Below, piece after piece: positions 31,160 to 41,870 of a stretch of 64,000 nucleotides of DNA (positions are counted from its first letter, which is position 1; every line of letters starts with the position of its first letter). The translations under genes and the position numbers were made by a program. The notes beneath the pieces are model-generated. The model was given only the letters and a program-made list of their open reading frames with translations. It was not told the origin of the DNA and ran no database searches. Source of the DNA: Nipponacmea schrenckii (lineage: Eukaryota; Mollusca; Gastropoda; Lottiidae); contig CM060200.1 of NCBI GenBank assembly GCA_030562195.1, positions 28,807,023-28,871,022 on the forward strand, in the 5' to 3' direction.

Positions 31160-34020
31160 AGTGTTTCAATTACGACAACAATTTACAGTTATTTTCCATT
31201 AGTTTAAAATTGAAACAATCTACATGTATTCATTTACTGGAATCATAAAACTTTCCAAACAAAATCTTTCGCAAGCTATAATTAACACGAGTTCTTTCTG
31301 ACTTGAACTGTTGAATATTTAACTTGAAATGCTTTATAGATGAGGTGGGCTAACGATACTTATCCTCCTGTAAGTTATTGATTATGGTTTCCATATACAG
31401 ATTTAACGGTTTCAAATTTTACTCCTTATCAGATTTCATTACAAAAAAAAATCTATTCCAACAAATACGTCGCAAGAATATAATGAAATATATAGCAATA
31501 GGCTAGAGCATTATATCGCATTTTAATCATTTTTCGTTCATTTCATTCTTGAGACATATTCCAACAGATTAAGTTTTTATACCACCAGAAATTGTAAATA
31601 GTTATAAATTCCTATACGAATCACATATATTCCAATTTAATTAGGACCATATTCCATATGACCCTATTTTCAACAATAAATGATTCAATATGTTTCTTCG
31701 GAAACTTTTTTTTATATCGGACTCTGGTTAGCAGAACTTTAGAAAACTTCCTTCCAATTGTAGTAGTAAGACTTCTCTTCTCAATTGACTTCAGTGATTA
31801 AGTTATCGCACAGTAGAAGAGAGGAAGCGTGGAAACCTATAAATTTATAGACGAGAGACTATAAGATCATCAGGTGGTTAAAGTACTGCCAGCGTTTTCA
31901 ATATGTTGATATAAGTTATATAGTCATGAGAATCCAGTTTAGAGGCAAATTCAGTAGAAACTTGCAACGTAAGTGCTTAAAAGCTAATATATCTTCGTTC
32001 ATACTATATAGACAATTGCTCGTACTAATAGCAATGAAATACAAACTCGGGGACACCCTTTTTTTTTTATAAAGAATAGATTCATCGATAATTCAGTAAT
32101 AATTGCTGTTCTGTATAAGTACACACCTTCACATAAAGACGCATATTATTCAAAGCGTACTGTAATTGCTTATCTTATTCTAATGTAGTATCATCCCAAC
32201 CAATCTAAAACACACTTACAATCATACAATGCATGTAATAATCTTTCATATTCCATTGGCGTCTACTATGTTGAGTTAAATATGATTGTTTAATAGCAAT
32301 TCTACGTTAACACATTCTACTGACTGGTACCATATAATTCTATACACACGTGTTTCACATTTAACCACACCTTCACGCGTTGTATTGTACCTGGAATGTA
32401 TAGAACATCTAATTAATTTTTAACCAGAATATATCATCCACTTCAATTTACTCAATATAAAGCGAATGTATTAAATATAATCGACACATTTCAATGATAT
32501 TTAAAAACCCGTATACCCAGGGAAGGGATTTTAAAAAAAGAATTTACAAAAGGAAGTCTGGTTTTTATATCGGCAATTCAAATAAGGGGCAAAACTCCTG
32601 CCTATAAAAGTAGGTCAAGCTTAGAGGTCGACCGGTGATCTAGACTTACTATTCATTACATTATACAATTAAAGTACACATAATAATGACCGTGTGTCAA
32701 AGAATGTTAGTATACTGCACCTAACAGGAGGCATTAAACTGCTCGCTAGTTTGGTTTATGAGTTCGAAGCAATCCGTAGGGAAAGAGGTGTATCTCTTAT
32801 CTTAAATATTTTACCAAAATCACCCCCGAACAAGATGGTTTTCTTAGATTTACTCTTAGTCAACCACACCCTGGTGTTTGGGCATCACCGCTACATTTCA
32901 TTCAGATTTCATTTAATTTTATTTAAAAAATAAAGTGGCATAAATGATGAAGGGGAAAATGATTGAACTGATACAAAAAAAACAAAACAAAAAAAAACAT
33001 TCAGAATATATCGGTATTCAAACCCCCGCACCTTCATTACCTTTATTGTCGATTGTCAGTTTACATTAAATTTATTAAACCCATTCCATATAATAACTTA
33101 TTGATACGGTGACTTGATAAATTGCAAACTTTCATTATGTTAGATCCACGATGTTAATGAGTTCCATCCTGCAAAAGTCACTGTCTTAATGTCCCTAATT
33201 TTAATATTTTGTCTATTCTCTAATCATGATTGTGTCAGTTTTTCCTAAGGTGCATTTTATCTTCAGCGAGTTAAGTCATTAACCCCCCCCCCCCTCAACT
33301 TCCCCGACCCTGGAATTTGTTTATATTTCAACTAATATTGCTTACACCGTCTTACTATGTAATTTTACCTTTCCAAATATTTTGTATATTTGTAAACTTT
33401 TGCATTAGAATATGATTTTTTATAGACATTTTTTGTCGTTTTGTTACTTCCAATTTACGTTCAAAACTTTATAAAGTTTCGAAATTTAGTGTGGGTGTTT
33501 ACTTTGGTCAGAATTTGACATAAATTATTTCCAAACTTTAAAATTTTGCATTTTAGTTAATTGTTATCACATCTTTAAAAAGGACAGTTGTCTAATTTGA
33601 ATTTCAAATGATCATTGTGTTCCGACTGCTCAGGTTTATGAATAGATCAAATTTTGGCTTAAAAATGGAATTTTCCAGTTGCTTTTAGATTTTGTCAGTC
33701 GAAGAACTGACCGAATGAAAATGTACGCATTAAACTTTGGAGTACCATAAAAAGCAGCTGTTCACATAGTTCCCCAGTTAAAGACAATTTGTCTTATTAG
33801 TAGTAAGAACAAGCTTTATACAACTTTGTTACCTCATACAGAATACCAATTAATGTAGCAAGTAGCGAGCGCCACATCTGTTATAAAAATAACCTAAGGT
33901 TTTACAGTTCAACCCAATATAAAATAATTATAACACCAGAGAATTAGTTGTAAGTTTATCATTTAGAAAAAAAATGACGAGTTTTACAGCGGCTTCAATA
34001 TTTTTTCGATATCAATCTTC
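31160..34020. other. Upstream flank of the GPCR gene
   Basis: This AT-rich region is 5' of the GPCR start codon and should hold the promoter and any noncoding first exon. I could not locate a convincing promoter or splice site for the gene. A TATA-like CCTATAAAAG at about 32600 points the other way. A 12-nt C run lies near 33283. The open frame at 32694-32933 has no recognisable domain. Confidence 0.4.
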
Positions 34021-34100
34021 CGATGGATCTTTAACGTGCACAGCCTGTACCACACGGGACCACCCGAACGACTAAAGGCTTTTTCCATGTCAGTCTCAGT
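34021..34100 (-). repeat. Third copy (fragment) of the SINE-like core repeat
   Basis: The plus strand reads GGATCTTTAACGTGCACAGC, CTGTACCACACGGGACC, CCCGAACGACTA and TTTTCCATGTCAGTCTC, matching the core of the repeat at 12360-12700 in the same orientation but shortened. Confidence 0.7.
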
Positions 34101-35008
34101 TTATTCATTAGAAGCAAAACACAGGTTTTCTATTTTACATTCTGTTACAATGAAATATTATTTTGTATTCTGTACAGCTTTTGTGGCGACCTGTTTGAAT
34201 AATAATATAAGAGAAAAAAAAAACATATTTTAAAGTTATGGGTTACCACCTGGCTTCGGAGATATGATATTTATTTAACGTAAAGTTTTTAGTAGAAAAG
34301 CTGATATTTTTGATAATAGATCCCGTTTTTACATAAAGAGAGCGTTTAATGTGTATTTTTTAATATGAACCATTATATGCCAGTAGATTAAAAGGGGATT
34401 CTTGATGATCCGAATGCATCCTAATGCTTTGGATGGGTATCGAATGTAATATATACATGACTAGTTGGCACTGAATGGTTACTTTGGAAATATTTGGAAA
34501 TGTCACAAGAAAAGTTGCCGACGTCGATTGAAATTTGTGGAATGTGAAAAGGTCGTTGAATCTTGTTAATACATGGAATGAGTAGATCAAGTCGAAATTC
34601 GTAGACTAATTTACAAGTTGGTATAACAAAATCATCTGATTGGCACATGGAAAAAATTAAAAACAAAAACAAAAACGAAAAAATTATATAATCTCCAAGC
34701 TTTCGTGGAAATAGCTGCATTTATTAATGTATCGAAGAATTAGCAACAAAAAGACGTAAATAATATTTTAGGTAATTAATGACTAAACGTTATCGAGTAG
34801 GCTATTGTTGGTCATAGTTCGCTAAAGAATAGTAGCAATAAAGCCAATTTTGTTTAGATGTGATTTTACTACTTGACAAATTACGTGTCAGAAAAAACAT
34901 TTTGTTTAATGGTGTAAATATACCTTAATAGGCCTACTATATTTACAACATCAGTAAGGAGCGACCGTAGACCATATATCCCGTTTGTGATCAGAAAGGG
35001 AACAAGCG
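34101..35008. other. Intergenic, nothing recognised
   Basis: AT-rich. Two overlapping minus-strand open frames (34360-34590, 34421-34720) have no recognisable motif and look like chance. Confidence 0.5.
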
Positions 35009-35637
35009 GTTGCCTAGCAAGATACGCCCACTTTAAAATATATTTTATGTTTTAACACAGGCAGAAACTCCAACATTATTTAGGTCTAATCCAAGTTCTC
35101 ATCAATATAAATGTTCACACCAAATTTGATTCAAATCAGATGAAACATATTCTCTATTGTATTTACTAGCTAATTCAAGGGCAATAACTCAAATATAGTT
35201 CATCGAAAATTAGCAAATACTGAACTTGTTCAAGATTTCAGCAATAAAAATGATCACATCAAATTTCATTCAAATCAGATGAAAACTGTATTATCTATTG
35301 CAATCACAAGCCAATTTCGCAGTGTTTTGACTAAGTCAAGTGCAATAACTCAAAAACAGTTTATCAAAAAATCGTCAATTTTGTACTTGACCAAGATCTC
35401 ATCAACTTCAATGATCACACCAAGTTTTTGTTTTGCTTTTCTACATTATTGTTAGTGTTATTTAATTAATATATATTTTTGCATTTTTCACTTATATTTT
35501 CATCTTTCTTTATTTCCAACACCCAAACCGTCTTCTTTTGCATACCTGATTCCTACATTTTACGCTAACATATTAAAATTTCACAATTATTTAAATACAA
35601 CTGAACATTCCCCTTCTAACCTAGACTTATTTTCATT

Positions 35638-36279
35638 ATGCTCCACAACTTTGACAACCACTGGCAAGAAGCCAGACATCGCAACACTTATCGCCATCCA
35701 AACCAACATCACGAACCCTATAACGGCCCAGTATTCCATCGACCTCTACCATCTACCAATCGCCGACCACCAACCAATCAAGCCATTTATATCCCACCAC
35801 ACCAACGACCTACCCACAACACTGCCTATTCATCCAGAGATAACCATCGACCTACCCACAACACAGCCTACCCATCCAAAAATAACCACCGGCCTCTGGT
35901 GATCATTCTGCATGTAGGCCTCAACAATCGTGACCAGTTAGCCAAAACCTCATTTAACCAAGCCCAGAAATTAATTTCCACAGCCAACCAAACCTTTCCT
36001 AGCTCCAAGATCATCTTTTCTTGTATACCTATCTCTAATAAAATCTCTAAGAAAGCCCAGCAGAATCTTAAGACATTCAACGATATGATGATGAACTCCG
36101 ACACTGAGAACGCAACAATCCTGTCACCCTACGAAGAAGAATTCGAACCAGTTGATAATCTTCATTGGTCTCCGGAAACAGCCAACAATATATACTTGTT
36201 TTGGATACACCAGCTTCAAGCACCGGGTAAGTCTTTAAACAAATTACTGGGGATAAAAATATTGAGAGGCCGCCGCTAG
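35638..36279 (+). CDS. Penelope ORF1: repeat-rich N-terminus and SGNH-hydrolase-like domain
   Basis: This is a 213-residue protein upstream of the reverse transcriptase. Residues 1-85 are rich in Pro, His, Asn and Arg and include two copies of a 14-residue repeat, RPTHNTAYSSRDNH at 57-70 and RPTHNTAYPSKNNH at 71-84. Residues 86-190 resemble an SGNH/GDSL hydrolase: a strand then HVGLNNRD (block III, G94 and N96), a helix, IIFSCIPIS, and DNLHWSPETANN (block V, D173 and H176). The Ser-bearing block I (GDS) is not seen, so this copy may lack the N-terminal part or be catalytically dead. An in-frame stop at 35617 makes the ATG at 35638 the first available start. Comparable esterase-like domains are known in ORF1 of CR1-type LINEs. 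The final codons overlap ORF2 in the -1 frame. Confidence 0.75.
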   Translation: MLHNFDNHWQEARHRNTYRHPNQHHEPYNGPVFHRPLPSTNRRPPTNQAIYIPPHQRPTHNTAYSSRDNHRPTHNTAYPSKNNHRPLVIILHVGLNNRDQLAKTSFNQAQKLISTANQTFPSSKIIFSCIPISNKISKKAQQNLKTFNDMMMNSDTENATILSPYEEEFEPVDNLHWSPETANNIYLFWIHQLQAPGKSLNKLLGIKILRGRR

Positions 36280-38501
36280 GCCAAACCGTCGTTAACTTAA
36301 GCCGAAAAATTCTCACACCCCTCCAGCATTCAATCTTAGACCGTGGACTTAAATTTATTCCGACTCCTAACTTACCTAACCTTGATTATCTTCAACCGTC
36401 TATTCAACGATTTCAACGGAATCTCAGTTGCACATACTTTTTTCGAAACCACCCTCCACGCGGTGCTAGAACAATGTTTATTCCTAAATCCACGTGGAAA
36501 CCACCTAAAACCGCTATCCATCCAGAAATATTAAACGTATTTACAAGTATGAATAACCAAATATCAAATCTTTCCATAACACACGAGAAGCCTAATCTAA
36601 CGCGAGTAGAACGTGAAGCATTAAATGTACTTAAAAAAGACGATAGCATTGTAATTAAAAAGAGTGACAAAGGTTCATGTTGCGTTATATTAAATAGGGA
36701 AGATTATATTGCAGAAGCAGAGCATCAATTGAATAATCCTAAACACTATGCAATTTTACCGGAGCCGATTTTTAAAGAAACTGCTAATATGATAAACAAT
36801 ATTCTTGCCGACTTAGTTAAAACAAGTCATTTAAAACAGAAACAATATGACTATCTTTCTGCCAAACCTGATTGCCGCGAGAGACACTTATACACTTTGC
36901 CGAAAATTCATAAGAATCCTACCAAGGATTGGTTCATGCCTAATAGAATCCCTAAAGGCCGCCCGATTATCTCTGACTGTGGTAGTGAGTCTTATGCAGT
37001 GTCAGAATACATCGATCATTTCTTACTACCACTAGCATGTCAACATCGAGCCTACCTTAAGGACACAACTGACTTTGTCAATAAAATGAAAAACCTTCAA
37101 GTCCCTTCAAATGCTATTCTAATTTCAATAGACGTAACTTCTATGTACACCTATATCGACAACACTACTGGCCTAATGGCAGTTCGCAAAGCTTTTGATA
37201 GAAACCCAGATCCAGACAGACCCGACGATGCAATTCTACAGCTTTTAGAGATTTGTCTTAGTCGCAATGATTTCACATTTAATGGTAAAACATATCTACA
37301 AACCTCAGGTACAGCTATGGGCAAACGATTCGCCCCTTCATACGCAAACCTTTTCATGGCAGAGTGGGAACGTGAGGTATTACCCCTTTGTCCATTTGAC
37401 CCACTTTTCTATGGACGCTTCTTAGATGACATTTTCATGGTTTGGACTTACTCCATAGAACAATTTTGGCAATTTTTTGAAATCCTCAACAACCACCACC
37501 CGTCCATCAAACTAACAGCCAGTGTCAGTCACAAAAGCATAGATTTTCTCGATACTACTGTTTTTAAAGGTGATTCCATAGCGGAGACTAATAAATTAGA
37601 TATTAAAGTATATTTCAAAGAAACCGACACTCATCAACTTTTGCATAAGAGCTCATTTCATCCAAAACATACATTTTCTGGAATTATTAAGTCACAAGTT
37701 TTACGATTTCACCGAATTTGCACAAGGCCTTCTGATTTCAACCAAGCCTGTACGATTGTTTTCTCAAAACTGAAAGAGCGTGGATACTCTAAACTTTTTT
37801 TACGAAACATAAAAAATTCCACATTAGCACAGTTAGCAGCTAAAAATAGACTTTATGCCGAAGGGCCTCTAGGTTTAAGGAGTGCCCCATGTATGTCAAC
37901 CAGATGCAAAACATGTCCCTTTATATCAGAAACGCATTATTTTCAAAGTAACTCTACGAATAAAAGATACCCGATCCAAGAGCACCTAACATGTGAAAAC
38001 TCGAATGTAATATACTTAATTTCATGTAAAAAATGTCCCAAACAATATATCGGGGAAACAAAGAACAAATTACGCACTCGTTTTAATGCTCACAGATCAG
38101 ATATTAAATTAAAAAAAGACAAGCCTGTTTCTAACCATTTCAATCTTGACGACCATTCACTTGACGATCTCACCCTAACCCCAATTGAGCGCATAGAAAT
38201 CGACTTGCCCGAAGATGAAACTACCAAATTCCGTCAATCTAGAGAAGCCCATTGGATTGAGACATTGAATACAGCAAGACCCATAGGACTTAATATTCAC
38301 CACAGTGTAGGCATAGCACCCTTTGTAGTTCCATTTAATACAACCAGTAATAAAGCAAGTAAGATAGTTCAAACCCATTATAAGAGTCTTCAAGAGAAAT
38401 TTCCTCATGTCTATAAACAGAAAATGATAGTGGCATATTCAAAAAATCAGAACTTAAATGACAACCTTGTTCATAGCAAACTAAAAATAATCTGTACTTA
38501 A
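36231..38501 (+). CDS. Penelope ORF2: reverse transcriptase plus GIY-YIG endonuclease
   Basis: This 756-codon open frame drives target-primed reverse transcription. The first ATG is at 36474, but the 81 codons before it are open and include GLKFIPTPNLPN and QRFQRNLSCTYFF, conserved at the start of Penelope proteins, so translation must enter upstream. Numbering from the ATG: KSDKGSCCVILNREDYI (64-79, RT0-like), LYTLPKIHK (139-147), GRPIISDCGS (162-171), ISIDVTSMYTYI (motif A, D220), TSGTAMGKRFAPSYAN (motif B, 278-292), YGRFLDDIFMVW (motif C, D318-D319), IDFLDTTVF, and a Cys cluster (CKTC, 478-481). The endonuclease begins NVIYLISCKKC (511-521) and QYIGETKNKLRTRF (524-537), a GIY-YIG core with the catalytic Arg region, and ends near HWIETL. 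No stop or frameshift interrupts it. It overlaps ORF1 by 49 nt, which includes a slippery heptamer. Confidence 0.93.
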   Translation, partial: VFKQITGDKNIERPPLGQTVVNLSRKILTPLQHSILDRGLKFIPTPNLPNLDYLQPSIQRFQRNLSCTYFFRNHPPRGARTMFIPKSTWKPPKTAIHPEILNVFTSMNNQISNLSITHEKPNLTRVEREALNVLKKDDSIVIKKSDKGSCCVILNREDYIAEAEHQLNNPKHYAILPEPIFKETANMINNILADLVKTSHLKQKQYDYLSAKPDCRERHLYTLPKIHKNPTKDWFMPNRIPKGRPIISDCGSESYAVSEYIDHFLLPLACQHRAYLKDTTDFVNKMKNLQVPSNAILISIDVTSMYTYIDNTTGLMAVRKAFDRNPDPDRPDDAILQLLEICLSRNDFTFNGKTYLQTSGTAMGKRFAPSYANLFMAEWEREVLPLCPFDPLFYGRFLDDIFMVWTYSIEQFWQFFEILNNHHPSIKLTASVSHKSIDFLDTTVFKGDSIAETNKLDIKVYFKETDTHQLLHKSSFHPKHTFSGIIKSQVLRFHRICTRPSDFNQACTIVFSKLKERGYSKLFLRNIKNSTLAQLAAKNRLYAEGPLGLRSAPCMSTRCKTCPFISETHYFQSNSTNKRYPIQEHLTCENSNVIYLISCKKCPKQYIGETKNKLRTRFNAHRSDIKLKKDKPVSNHFNLDDHSLDDLTLTPIERIEIDLPEDETTKFRQSREAHWIETLNTARPIGLNIHHSVGIAPFVVPFNTTSNKASKIVQTHYKSLQEKFPHVYKQKMIVAYSKNQNLNDNLVHSKLKIICT
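36234..36240 (+). promoter_or_regulatory. Candidate -1 ribosomal frameshift site (T TTA AAC)
   Basis: In ORF1 phase the codons are TCT TTA AAC, so the heptamer T TTA AAC fits the X XXY YYZ rule for tandem -1 slippage. It starts 4 nt after the last stop in the ORF2 frame (TAA, 36228-36230) and lies 36 nt before the ORF1 stop codon. Slippage at this point enters ORF2 directly. A GC-rich hairpin-capable segment (GGCC GCCGCTA GGCC, about 36268-36282) follows, but at a longer spacing than the usual 5-9 nt, so the stimulator is uncertain. Confidence 0.65.
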
Positions 38502-38514
38502 CAGGTACTATACT

Positions 38515-38533
38515 ACTCGCTCATCGGGCGAGT
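38515..38533 (+). other. Stem-loop in the Penelope 3' UTR
   Basis: ACTCGC-TCATCGG-GCGAGT forms a 6-bp stem with a 7-nt loop, 13 nt after the ORF2 stop and followed by a T-rich stretch. It could be a 3'-end recognition structure. It lacks the CTGANGA/GAAA core of a hammerhead ribozyme. Confidence 0.5.
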
Positions 38534-39194
38534 TATTTTATTTTTTCTAATTTCAGATCAGAAGAGAAGAAAATCATCCAACAGATCCAGATCCCAATTT
38601 CTCAATAAGATATTTGTTCCACCCTAGGCCTGTACATTTGGGAGATTCAATCCCTCCCTTCCCCGAAATCAAAAACCGTTCATCGAAAAATCGCCTATTT
38701 TGAATTAATCCAAGATCTCATCAATATAAATGATCACAGCAAGTTTCATTCAAATCAATTCAAATTTTCATTCAATGACAAAAGTAGTCTCTATAGCGTT
38801 TACAAGCCAATTTTAACGCGTTTTGACTAAGTCAAGGTCAATAACTCAAAAACTGTTCGTTGAAAAATGGCCAATTTCGAATTTGTCCAAGATCTCATCA
38901 ATATAAATGATCACAGCAAGTTTCATTCAAATCCGAAAGAAACTGTAGTCTCTATCGCGTTCACAAGCCAATTTATGACGTGTTTTGACTAAGTCAAGTG
39001 CAATAACTCAAAAACCGTTCATCGAAAAATCGCCAAATTCGAACTTGTCCGAGATATCAACTATATAAATGATCAAAACAAAATCCGACAAAAACTGTAG
39101 TCTCTATCGCGTTCACAAGCAATTGAGGACGGACGGACGGACGGGGGTGACGACAATATACGACCACATTATAATGTGGGCGTATAAAAAAAAC

Positions 39195-41870
39195 ACACTA
39201 CAAAAAAAAAATCACCATTACACACTAAATAGATATTCCACAAAAAAGGACAAACTTCGTAAACCTAATAATAATTCTATGAAATGACAGATAATGAAAA
39301 GCAAAAAAACAGTTTTTAACAGTATTGTGTTCATAGATTAGATTATTAATTTTTATAGGATTCTTAGCATGCAATATTTGAAATAAATGCAAGATATAGG
39401 TGCAGCAATATTCTTTTTACGTAAAACTTACAAAGGTAACATCAAAGAAGGAACGAACAAAGAGAACAAATCGGAAATATGTATTAATACATGTTCTGGT
39501 AATTTTCGATTCCGGCTGAACAGGAACTATTGATCAAAGTCCTCGAGAAAAAATAACTTCCGTAAGCCGGTGATTGTAAATGGACGTAGCTCTATCATTC
39601 GAATTAAACTGAACCTTTCATATCAACTTATCCTTGATTGATTCCGGACCTCCAATTGGTACACAGACATTCCTCGAGTGATCGAGTGCACGGTACAGGC
39701 CCGAAAGAGAACAGCTTCTCTCGTGAGTGAGCTGTCTTCTAAAGTTGTTCGGTCGATGTTTTGGTCATATGTAGGCGAAGGTTGACGAAGAGAGCCTCGG
39801 GAAACCGAATATAAACGATTTTTGGATGAGGAGTAGGGTATCGAAAAAGGGATCGGGATGTTTTTAAACATGTTGTGTCTTCACGTCTATGATTCCACCA
39901 CGCAAGCCGTGTTCCATTTTTCGGTATTCAGTCGGGTAAAAAAGAGGCAATACGGGATGATTAGAGGCGTTTCAGGTCGACAATCGGTAACTATCTGTTG
40001 AGATCGGGTCGGTCAACAAAAAAACAGTAGCCGATCACTTACAGCTTATCTATCGGAATTCAAAATTTTAACCTGGATACACTGATAAGTATGATATCAA
40101 ACTTTTCTCAGAAAAAAATAGCCTTGCAAAGCTAAGTGACATACGCCTTCCAGCAGCTTTGAAGTACAAGTTATCCATTATAACTAACACAATGAAAACG
40201 CGAACATAAGTCGGATGCAATATTTCAGTGAAAAATTATCAGATCTTTACGAAAATCAATATTGATCATCTAAATAATAACAATAACCTTCCAAATAAAA
40301 ATGAAAAGAATCCATAGAGAACTGTTGCCTGTAGAGTGAGCACGAGTTGCACCCTATAGCTGGAGTGAAAATCGCTAAGCAGACACGATATTTCGGATGG
40401 AAGGACCGCCGGGGCCCCGGTGCCTAGTTAAAGTCCTCTTCTGCTTAATTATTTGTTACATACAGTACAGATCAACGAGAGCAAAGTATAAGTAGACTTA
40501 TCTTTAAGAGAACCAAGCTTCAGAAGTGAAATTCCTTTGAAGAAATTAGAGATTTTCATATAGTTACTGTTACGTCTGCAGGTAATTAACATACATGTAT
40601 TATATTTAAGACCTTAATCAGCCTGAGTGTTGAACCAGGACCTCTTTATGATTTTAGCTTCCATTTTACTGAATACATCTTAATAAATATATAGAAAACA
40701 GCACAATGTTAACCGAAGATATAATCGATCAGATTTAGTTTATTATGCTGCCATGTTTTATAACAAAGTTATGCACACAAAAAATCATCAACTTCCGTCA
40801 AGATTTCGCACGCATTACAAACCATTAGTCAATTATTATAATCCAGAGCACGCAAATGTATTTGAATCTTTATATTTCCATTAAATCCACGGAACTATTT
40901 TGAATTTAGTGTAAAAAAACATTATGATAGGCAGGGAAGAGGAATGGCGTTATTTTTTCACATGATGAAATTTGTCAGAATAATGATTGTATATCACGTA
41001 CTTGTAAAGGAAGCCTGGAACCATCACGTACTCGGAAATTAAAATCCACCAAAGCCGACAAGGGATAAAGTTTAATTGATTTTGGGTCAAAACATTTTAT
41101 GTTTAAGAAATCAAACGATTTGTTAGAAACAGGAAGAGAAGAAAATAACTAGGAAGATCATTAGTGAGTATCATTGATAACCTGATCTCGTCATCAATAA
41201 TCATAACTTATATAAATAATCTTAAATGTTAGAAAAGGTGGTGGTGGTAACGTAGTTAACGTCCTTGCCAGCTTTGGCTGATTTTATAGACTAGGTAGTT
41301 TCATTTTTGTGTTCGTGGTAGTGGTATAAGAATCAATTGGATGATTAGGAAACTGTTGGTTCGGTGGTTTCAGAAATCGTACGATCAGGTCGGAACGAAT
41401 GTCATGGCGGTGGTGTTAAAAATAAGTTCCCATGAACTTGTATCAAAAGTAACTAGATAAAGCTAATCTAAAGAGAATTTACAATTTATCACAACGTGAA
41501 ATAAAAAGAAAAGGTAGAGAAAATAACAAAATCTTAAAAAATAATTGATGCATGTCACTTTGAAGAACCTAAGAATTTTCATGACCAAGAAATTTTATAA
41601 CACTGGTCTATGCTTTGTAAAATTATAGCAATAAAGTTTTGTTTTCTGATATTTTTCTCCATTGTAATCTATTACGTTTCTTACTTCAGTCCAGTTCTAA
41701 AAAAGTAATTTTTTTACCTATCAATGCGTGTCCATCTCTTGAATATCATGACGCATTGTGAGACCAAAGTGACAGTCATATAGTTATGTGGCCATACACA
41801 CCTCGTAGAAGTATTCTCTTTGATGTTGTCCAACGATATTGGACATATTACCCCAATGATGACGTCACCA
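39195..41870. other. Intergenic, nothing recognised
   Basis: Mostly AT-rich. The segment 39500-40050 is less AT-rich and holds an 82-codon minus-strand open frame (39623-39871) without any recognisable domain, so no gene is called. Confidence 0.4.

Follow-up and report, generated by a model that had tools for sequence, protein, structure and literature searches.

The Penelope-like element (PLE) at approximately 35430..38670 of the window (the whole stretch of 64,000 nucleotides analysed here; all features described below are on its + strand) very likely uses -1 programmed ribosomal frameshifting to produce a fusion of an SGNH esterase with a reverse transcriptase (RT). The candidate slippery heptamer T TTA AAC lies in the short overlap of the two reading frames of the element. 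The initial annotation of this sequence had suggested frameshifting, and the suggestion is supported by the heptamer and the -1 relation in 66 of 68 junctions of the same family, in nine representatives of the PLE families of the host genome, and also in a contig belonging to a different host.

In the proposed mechanism, ORF1, with its predicted helices and SGNH-esterase domain, would be translated from an ordinary ATG. At T TTA AAC, the tRNAs in the P- and A-sites would slip back by one base, from TTA AAC to TTT AAA. Without a slip, the ribosome would meet a stop codon (TAA, TAG or TGA) right after the heptamer, terminate and free the ORF1 protein; after a slip, it would continue into an ORF1-RT-GIY-YIG fusion in the Gag-Pol fashion. 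The sequences themselves show the two frames, the conserved heptamer with its stop codon, the G-rich block and, in six of the nine representatives, pairing stronger than codon constraint explains; slippage and its efficiency, a stimulator in the family of the window copy and the role of the fusion are inferred.

The element in the window

The boundaries of the copy were set by matching of other copies. On the left, matches of L027 and L042 begin at about 35422-35437, and on the right the matching of most copies ends at 38668-38676. ORF1 (35638..36279, with ATG at 35638 and TAG at 36277-36279) has 213 codons, compared to 557 in the copy L003. ORF2 (36231..38501, 756 codons), encoding RT and GIY-YIG endonuclease, is in the -1 frame relative to ORF1 and opens after the last stop codon of its frame, TAA at 36228..36230. 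In the phase of ORF1, the heptamer (36234..36240) reads T TTA AAC; the ORF2 frame divides it as TTT AAA C. It is followed by the place of the ORF1 stop codon of the family (36241..36243), which is TAA in most copies and AAA in the window. The first ATG in the ORF2 frame (36474..36476) is codon 82. The two frames, the ORF2-frame stop, the heptamer, the -1 relation and this ATG had all been reported in the initial annotation and are indeed in the sequence. The 49-nt overlap that it described is present as well, but it is atypical, as it results from a point change of TAA to AAA; with TAA, the overlap in the family is 13 nt. Similarly, ORF1 is open at the positions given, but it is a deletion derivative lacking 356 codons.

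The deletion junction is at 35897..35900, where 4 nt between positions 35896 and 35901 replace 1072 nt of the copies L003 and L037. The net loss of 1068 nt, or 356 ORF1 codons, keeps the frame. Seven of the fetched copies could be matched to the left and to the right of this interval, which is 1063-1072 nt long in six of them and 723 nt long in L027. The hexamer ACCGGC occurs at both breakpoint positions in L003. SGNH blocks 1 and 2 are missing from the window ORF1. The window copy, a deletion derivative that has kept the heptamer, is probably dead.

Judging by the combination of RT and GIY-YIG domains, the element is a PLE. The RVT_1 match (37080..37499) scores 23.2 bits, under the Pfam cut-off of 29.6, and the GIY-YIG match (38007..38273) scores 30.1 bits, over the cut-off of 22.6. 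Identity of the ORF2 homologues is 43-91% among the 120 listed out of 1548, and the best ones cover most of the length; they are named PLEs by their RT and GIY-YIG make-up. The named relatives of ORF1 are Lottia gigantea proteins with 69-87% identity over parts of ORF1, which points to a limpet-like gastropod as the probable host. Viral contigs scanned with ORF1, ORF2 and an alignment of 19 PLE proteins yielded no relative. No Rfam match to a hammerhead ribozyme was found at E values up to 1 in the region 33000-41000 of the damaged window copy. The hammerhead motif is present in many PLEs and is not strictly required.

In the 19-protein alignment, the conserved N-terminal stretch of the RT (residues 24-71, positions 36300..36443) is upstream of the first ORF2 ATG. 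It contains eight residues invariant in all aligned proteins: S24, L36, G39, L40, P44, P46, R63 and F71. This bears out the earlier claim that conserved N-terminal sequence precedes the first ATG.

The frameshift site in family A

A DNA search of the host genome (399 Mb) listed 47 matches, most of them 97-100% identical. The window and the fetched loci, with known duplicates dropped, make up 80 items, of which 68 are distinct junctions of the window's family, hereafter family A; L037, L063 and L068 were counted among them by hand because of indels. Of the 12 others, L046, L047, L048, L071 and L073 are truncated or carry deletions, and the rest belong to family B (L084-L088) or family C (L080, L082). 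Among the 68 family-A junctions, 66, including the window, have an unaltered heptamer, and in 62 it is followed by TAA (TTTAAAC-TAA; the window has TTTAAAC-AAA). The two exceptions are L038, where one base is changed, and L063, where both ORFs are in one frame at the junction. The heptamer of L063 is altered, and its ORF1 match contains three stop codons. Since most of the listed matches are 97-100% identical, the family-A count says little by itself. In composition shuffles of the 13-nt family overlap, any in-frame X XXY YYZ heptamer arises in about 0.8% of cases, and one right before the stop codon in 0.27%.

One observation concerns the counting of copies. The host contig C3 (59,252,672 bp) is exactly 2 x 29,626,336 bp long, and eight pairs of PLE matches in it are offset by 29,626,336; the four offset pairs that were fetched are identical where compared. 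It appears that a single chromosome sequence was entered in duplicate, with copy counts doubled in this contig.

Other PLE families of the host genome

Other PLE types were collected by protein searches of the host genome, with the heptamer disregarded. Nine representatives (A, B, C, D, Dp, E, F, G, H) were picked by hand to span the open-frame lengths. Their DNA identity is 46-89%; they have shared ancestry and hence are not independent tests. All nine contain T TTA AAC immediately followed by a stop codon, and in all nine ORF2 is in the -1 frame. The stop codon itself varies: TAA in A and G, TAG in B, D, Dp, E and F, and TGA in C and H. The alignment of copies proposed in the initial annotation as a check of its reading thus retains both the heptamer and the -1 relation, while the overlaps range in length between 13 and 142 nt.

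The longest invariant run in the alignment of the nine representatives is TTTAAACT, 8 nt in 343 columns, and the next longest is 3 nt. Nearby synonymous sites have diverged: codons for the same residue differ in 72 of 119 cases and are identical in 47 (six pairs, with E excluded for a misplaced anchor). Given Leu-Asn, T+TTA+AAC would be used in approximately 4% of cases by the family codon usage; any joint figure would be only a rough guide, because the representatives share ancestry.

Among the 26 fetched non-A junction loci (L080, L082, L084-L088, L096-L114), 22 contain the heptamer followed by a stop codon. The four loci without it are L101 and L114, which look 5'-truncated, L100, whose upstream sequence is different, and L110, which has no visible PLE frame. 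Small indels just downstream of the heptamer place ORF2 out of the -1 register in three of the 22 loci (L086, L099, L108), and the other 19 stay in this register as far as examined.

Homologues in other hosts

Scanning of prokaryotic genome contigs produced four PLE loci, filed under Epulopiscium (L120), Enterovibrio, a Bathymodiolus symbiont and a cyanobacterium MAG (L121-L123). These PLE loci in bacterial assemblies are probably eukaryotic contamination. L120 (46% identity) has an SGNH ORF1 of about 610 open codons with the blocks GDSN, SYPG and HLHW. Its junction contains T TTA AAC with a 0-frame stop codon 12 nt later, and its ORF2 is in the -1 frame. L121 also has an SGNH ORF1 and ORF2 in the -1 frame. 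It contains no X XXY YYZ heptamer; its junction reads G GAT TTA TGT TAG, which we take to resemble the MMTV pro-pol site. In L122 and L123, no SGNH ORF1 was seen upstream.

Leu-Asn forms the C-terminus of four database ORF1 proteins whose sequence stops in the SGNH C-terminal region (P0002, P0003, P0016, P0143), with identity down to 40%. A Lottia gene model, P0013, stands outside these four: it spans the ORF1 C-terminal region and continues into another predicted exon. One of the four, P0143, is labelled Amphimedon queenslandica (sponge) and is 76% identical to ORF1 over 54% of its length; this is either horizontal transfer or contamination.

On the ORF2 side, all 120 homologues listed out of 1548 were scanned for an NLS-like motif, which was missing in 16. 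At least 10 residues precede the motif in 41 of the listed homologues, of which five were removed by eye, four because the motif was misplaced (P0069, P0075, P0087, P0113) and one as an in-frame fusion (P0114). In the resulting set of 36, Phe-Lys-Leu precedes the NLS motif in 13 proteins, compared to 0.12 on average, and never more than 2, in 2000 equal-length draws from the same proteins. In 12 of these 13, the residue after Phe-Lys-Leu is compatible with a 0-frame stop codon. Post hoc, Lys-Lys-Leu was found in three and Gly-Lys-Leu in two of the 36, as A AAA AAC and G GGA AAC, respectively, would yield. The three motifs pooled, again post hoc, account for 18 of 36, with the control mean 1.5 and maximum 7.

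Alternative explanations

One alternative is separate initiation of ORF2, by reinitiation past the ORF1 stop codon, internal entry or a non-AUG codon. Five of the nine representatives (C, D, Dp, G, H) have an ATG in the ORF2 frame, four codons upstream of the heptamer, L121 has an ORF2-frame ATG right at the junction, and in L123, with no SGNH ORF1, ORF2 has its own upstream ATG. However, there is no such ATG in the examined stretch of A, B and E, and the single one in F lies downstream, at codon 25 counted from the slip. In A, initiation at the first ATG would omit all eight invariant residues, and the position of the heptamer right before the stop codon in all nine representatives would be left unexplained. 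We consider separate initiation quite unlikely.

On the evidence of the window alone, the strongest rival of frameshifting is splicing, and the initial annotation had named a spliced transcript as something that would overturn its reading. Retention of introns is known in PLEs. PMC3846280 mentions a spliceosomal intron in a PLE ORF. A possible donor of good quality, GTAAGT (GG/GTAAGT, where the slash marks the putative splice site), overlaps the start of ORF2 at 36227..36232 and is present in 61 of the 68 family-A junctions. An intron from 36227 to 36279 (53 nt) or 36339 (113 nt) would join ORF1 and ORF2 in frame, as by our reading of the sequence both acceptor AGs restore the frame. However, among the nine representatives this donor occurs in A only: in the other eight, no donor of the GTRAG type, the one tested, is present within the final 120 nt of ORF1. 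The 113-nt intron would delete the conserved RT residues S24 and L36, and the 53-nt intron has no pyrimidine-rich 3' end. Besides, splicing would leave unexplained why the heptamer, situated inside the intron, is invariant. The probability of this explanation seems very small.

The idea that the two frames arose by an indel in a dead copy, with the heptamer there by chance, deserves hardly any credence: the window copy is indeed decayed, with its 1068-nt deletion and lost stop codon, and the two ORFs of L063 share a frame at the junction, but the -1 layout is the norm, with the heptamer in 66 of 68 family-A junctions and nine of nine representatives, and L063 is altered in the heptamer itself and has three stops in its ORF1 match, so that this explanation is refuted by the copies examined. 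Related sequences with both ORFs in one frame, which the initial annotation had considered as evidence against frameshifting, are limited to the mutated L063 and the distant fusion protein P0114.

Candidate stimulator

Programmed frameshifting at T TTA AAC may be assisted by a downstream element, and a G-rich block 5-9 nt downstream of the heptamer is probably part of a stimulator. A block of at least five G occurs soon after the stop codon in the eight representatives other than A, and A carries CTGGGG. In the window, CTGGGG (36247..36252, 6 nt past the heptamer) and CTCCAG (36321..36326) are weak candidates for the 5' and 3' arms of a stem. In all seven representatives with alanine at the G-block position, this alanine is encoded by GCG, and the usage table has GCG in one of 42 alanine codons. 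The G-block of C, D, Dp, G and H can pair with a CTTTCTCCC-like sequence about 45 nt onward, forming 8-12 bp with a spacer of 5-7 nt.

Folding compared to mononucleotide shuffles gave nothing consistent, and therefore a codon-preserving null was used. The pairing is above this null in six of the nine representatives (B, C, D, Dp, G, H; p from 0.002 to 0.03) and is not above it in A (p = 0.20), E (p = 0.75) and F (p = 0.78). For none of the nine does the folding energy of the whole region fall under the null (p from 0.13 to 0.80). The initial annotation had called the stimulator uncertain, and for the family of the window the value of 0.20 agrees with that. It had also proposed prediction of a downstream pseudoknot; among the nine representatives no consistent pseudoknot was found: the search revealed no second stem in a register common to them, and it yielded nothing for F.

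The SGNH-esterase domain of ORF1

The intact ORF1 of L003 (557 codons) contains the blocks IIGSSNL, SYPG, HVGLNN and DNLHW; helices are predicted in the intact ORF1 at low confidence. No match was found in a Pfam search of ORF1. An AlphaFold model of the intact ORF1, constructed from a five-sequence alignment, has a mean pLDDT of 50.5, with approximately 80 in the domain. A Foldseek search with this model produced 38 PDB matches at E of at most 0.001, including PAF-acetylhydrolase (PAF-AH), TesA and SGNH esterases. By this model, the intact ORF1 has an SGNH-esterase-like domain. Such domains are already known in PLEs: PMC3905857 describes an SGNH esterase upstream of RT in CR1, RTEX and some Penelope-like elements.

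The protein P0114 (951 residues) combines an SGNH-like domain, identified by eye, with PLE RT and GIY-YIG in one frame. Since it is a natural in-frame SGNH-RT fusion, an ORF1-RT fusion is a plausible product.

Comparison with known systems

According to PMC5009743, U_UUA_AAC belongs to the heptamers at which mammalian ribosomes are most prone to shift. The retroviral and coronaviral U UUA AAC shifting covered there is similar to the PLE case in the heptamer itself, the -1 direction, the nearby stop codon and a candidate structure 5-9 nt downstream. The differences are that the element here is a Penelope-like retrotransposon, its ORF1 encodes an SGNH esterase rather than Gag or a polyprotein, no consistent pseudoknot was found, and the slip is deduced from the sequence. 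The part of PMC3905857 dealing with SGNH ORF1s of CR1, RTEX and PLE does not mention frameshifting, whereas here the esterase would join RT by the slip. PAc from Anolis, a Penelope/Poseidon element (PMC11167929), resembles the window element in having RT with a C-terminal GIY-YIG endonuclease. However, the PAc ORF has its own ATG and PAc carries a hammerhead ribozyme, whereas in the window element ORF1 precedes the RT frame and there is no hammerhead match.

The proposed mechanism is a known one, and as far as we found, it is unreported in PLEs within the literature searched. Programmed frameshifting in PLEs is not described in the available parts of PMC3846280, PMC11167929, PMC3905857, PMC5408684, PMC6431247, PMC5009743, PMC4465651 and PMC2678813; where the word frameshift occurs in the available text of PMC3846280 and PMC4465651, it denotes decay. 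Among the publications pairing Penelope with ribosomal frameshifting, none is on PLEs by title. The literature searched contained no report of programmed frameshifting in PLEs, and an earlier mention, e.g. in Craig et al. 2021, is possible.

Expression of PLE RT behind an ORF1 has hardly been described, as far as we found. If the frameshift is real, PLEs would be a third class of retroelements with control in the Gag-Pol style. It would also supply the true N-terminus of the RT for biochemistry and explain the truncated RT proteins produced by gene callers. The chances are about even that the frameshift sets the proportions of free ORF1 esterase and esterase-RT fusion in the manner of Gag and Gag-Pol, in elements that are neither LTR nor viral. 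Leu-Asn-stop in ORF1 and Phe-Lys-Leu before the NLS in ORF2 could serve as a signature for tracing frameshift-dependent PLEs across animals.

Surroundings of the element

The element in the window is bordered by related repeats at 35040-35430 and 38660-39130, which are absent beside the ends of many other copies. These are probably parts of a host repeat that received the insertion of the element. In L039 and L011, copies of the element are arranged head-to-tail with truncated copies.
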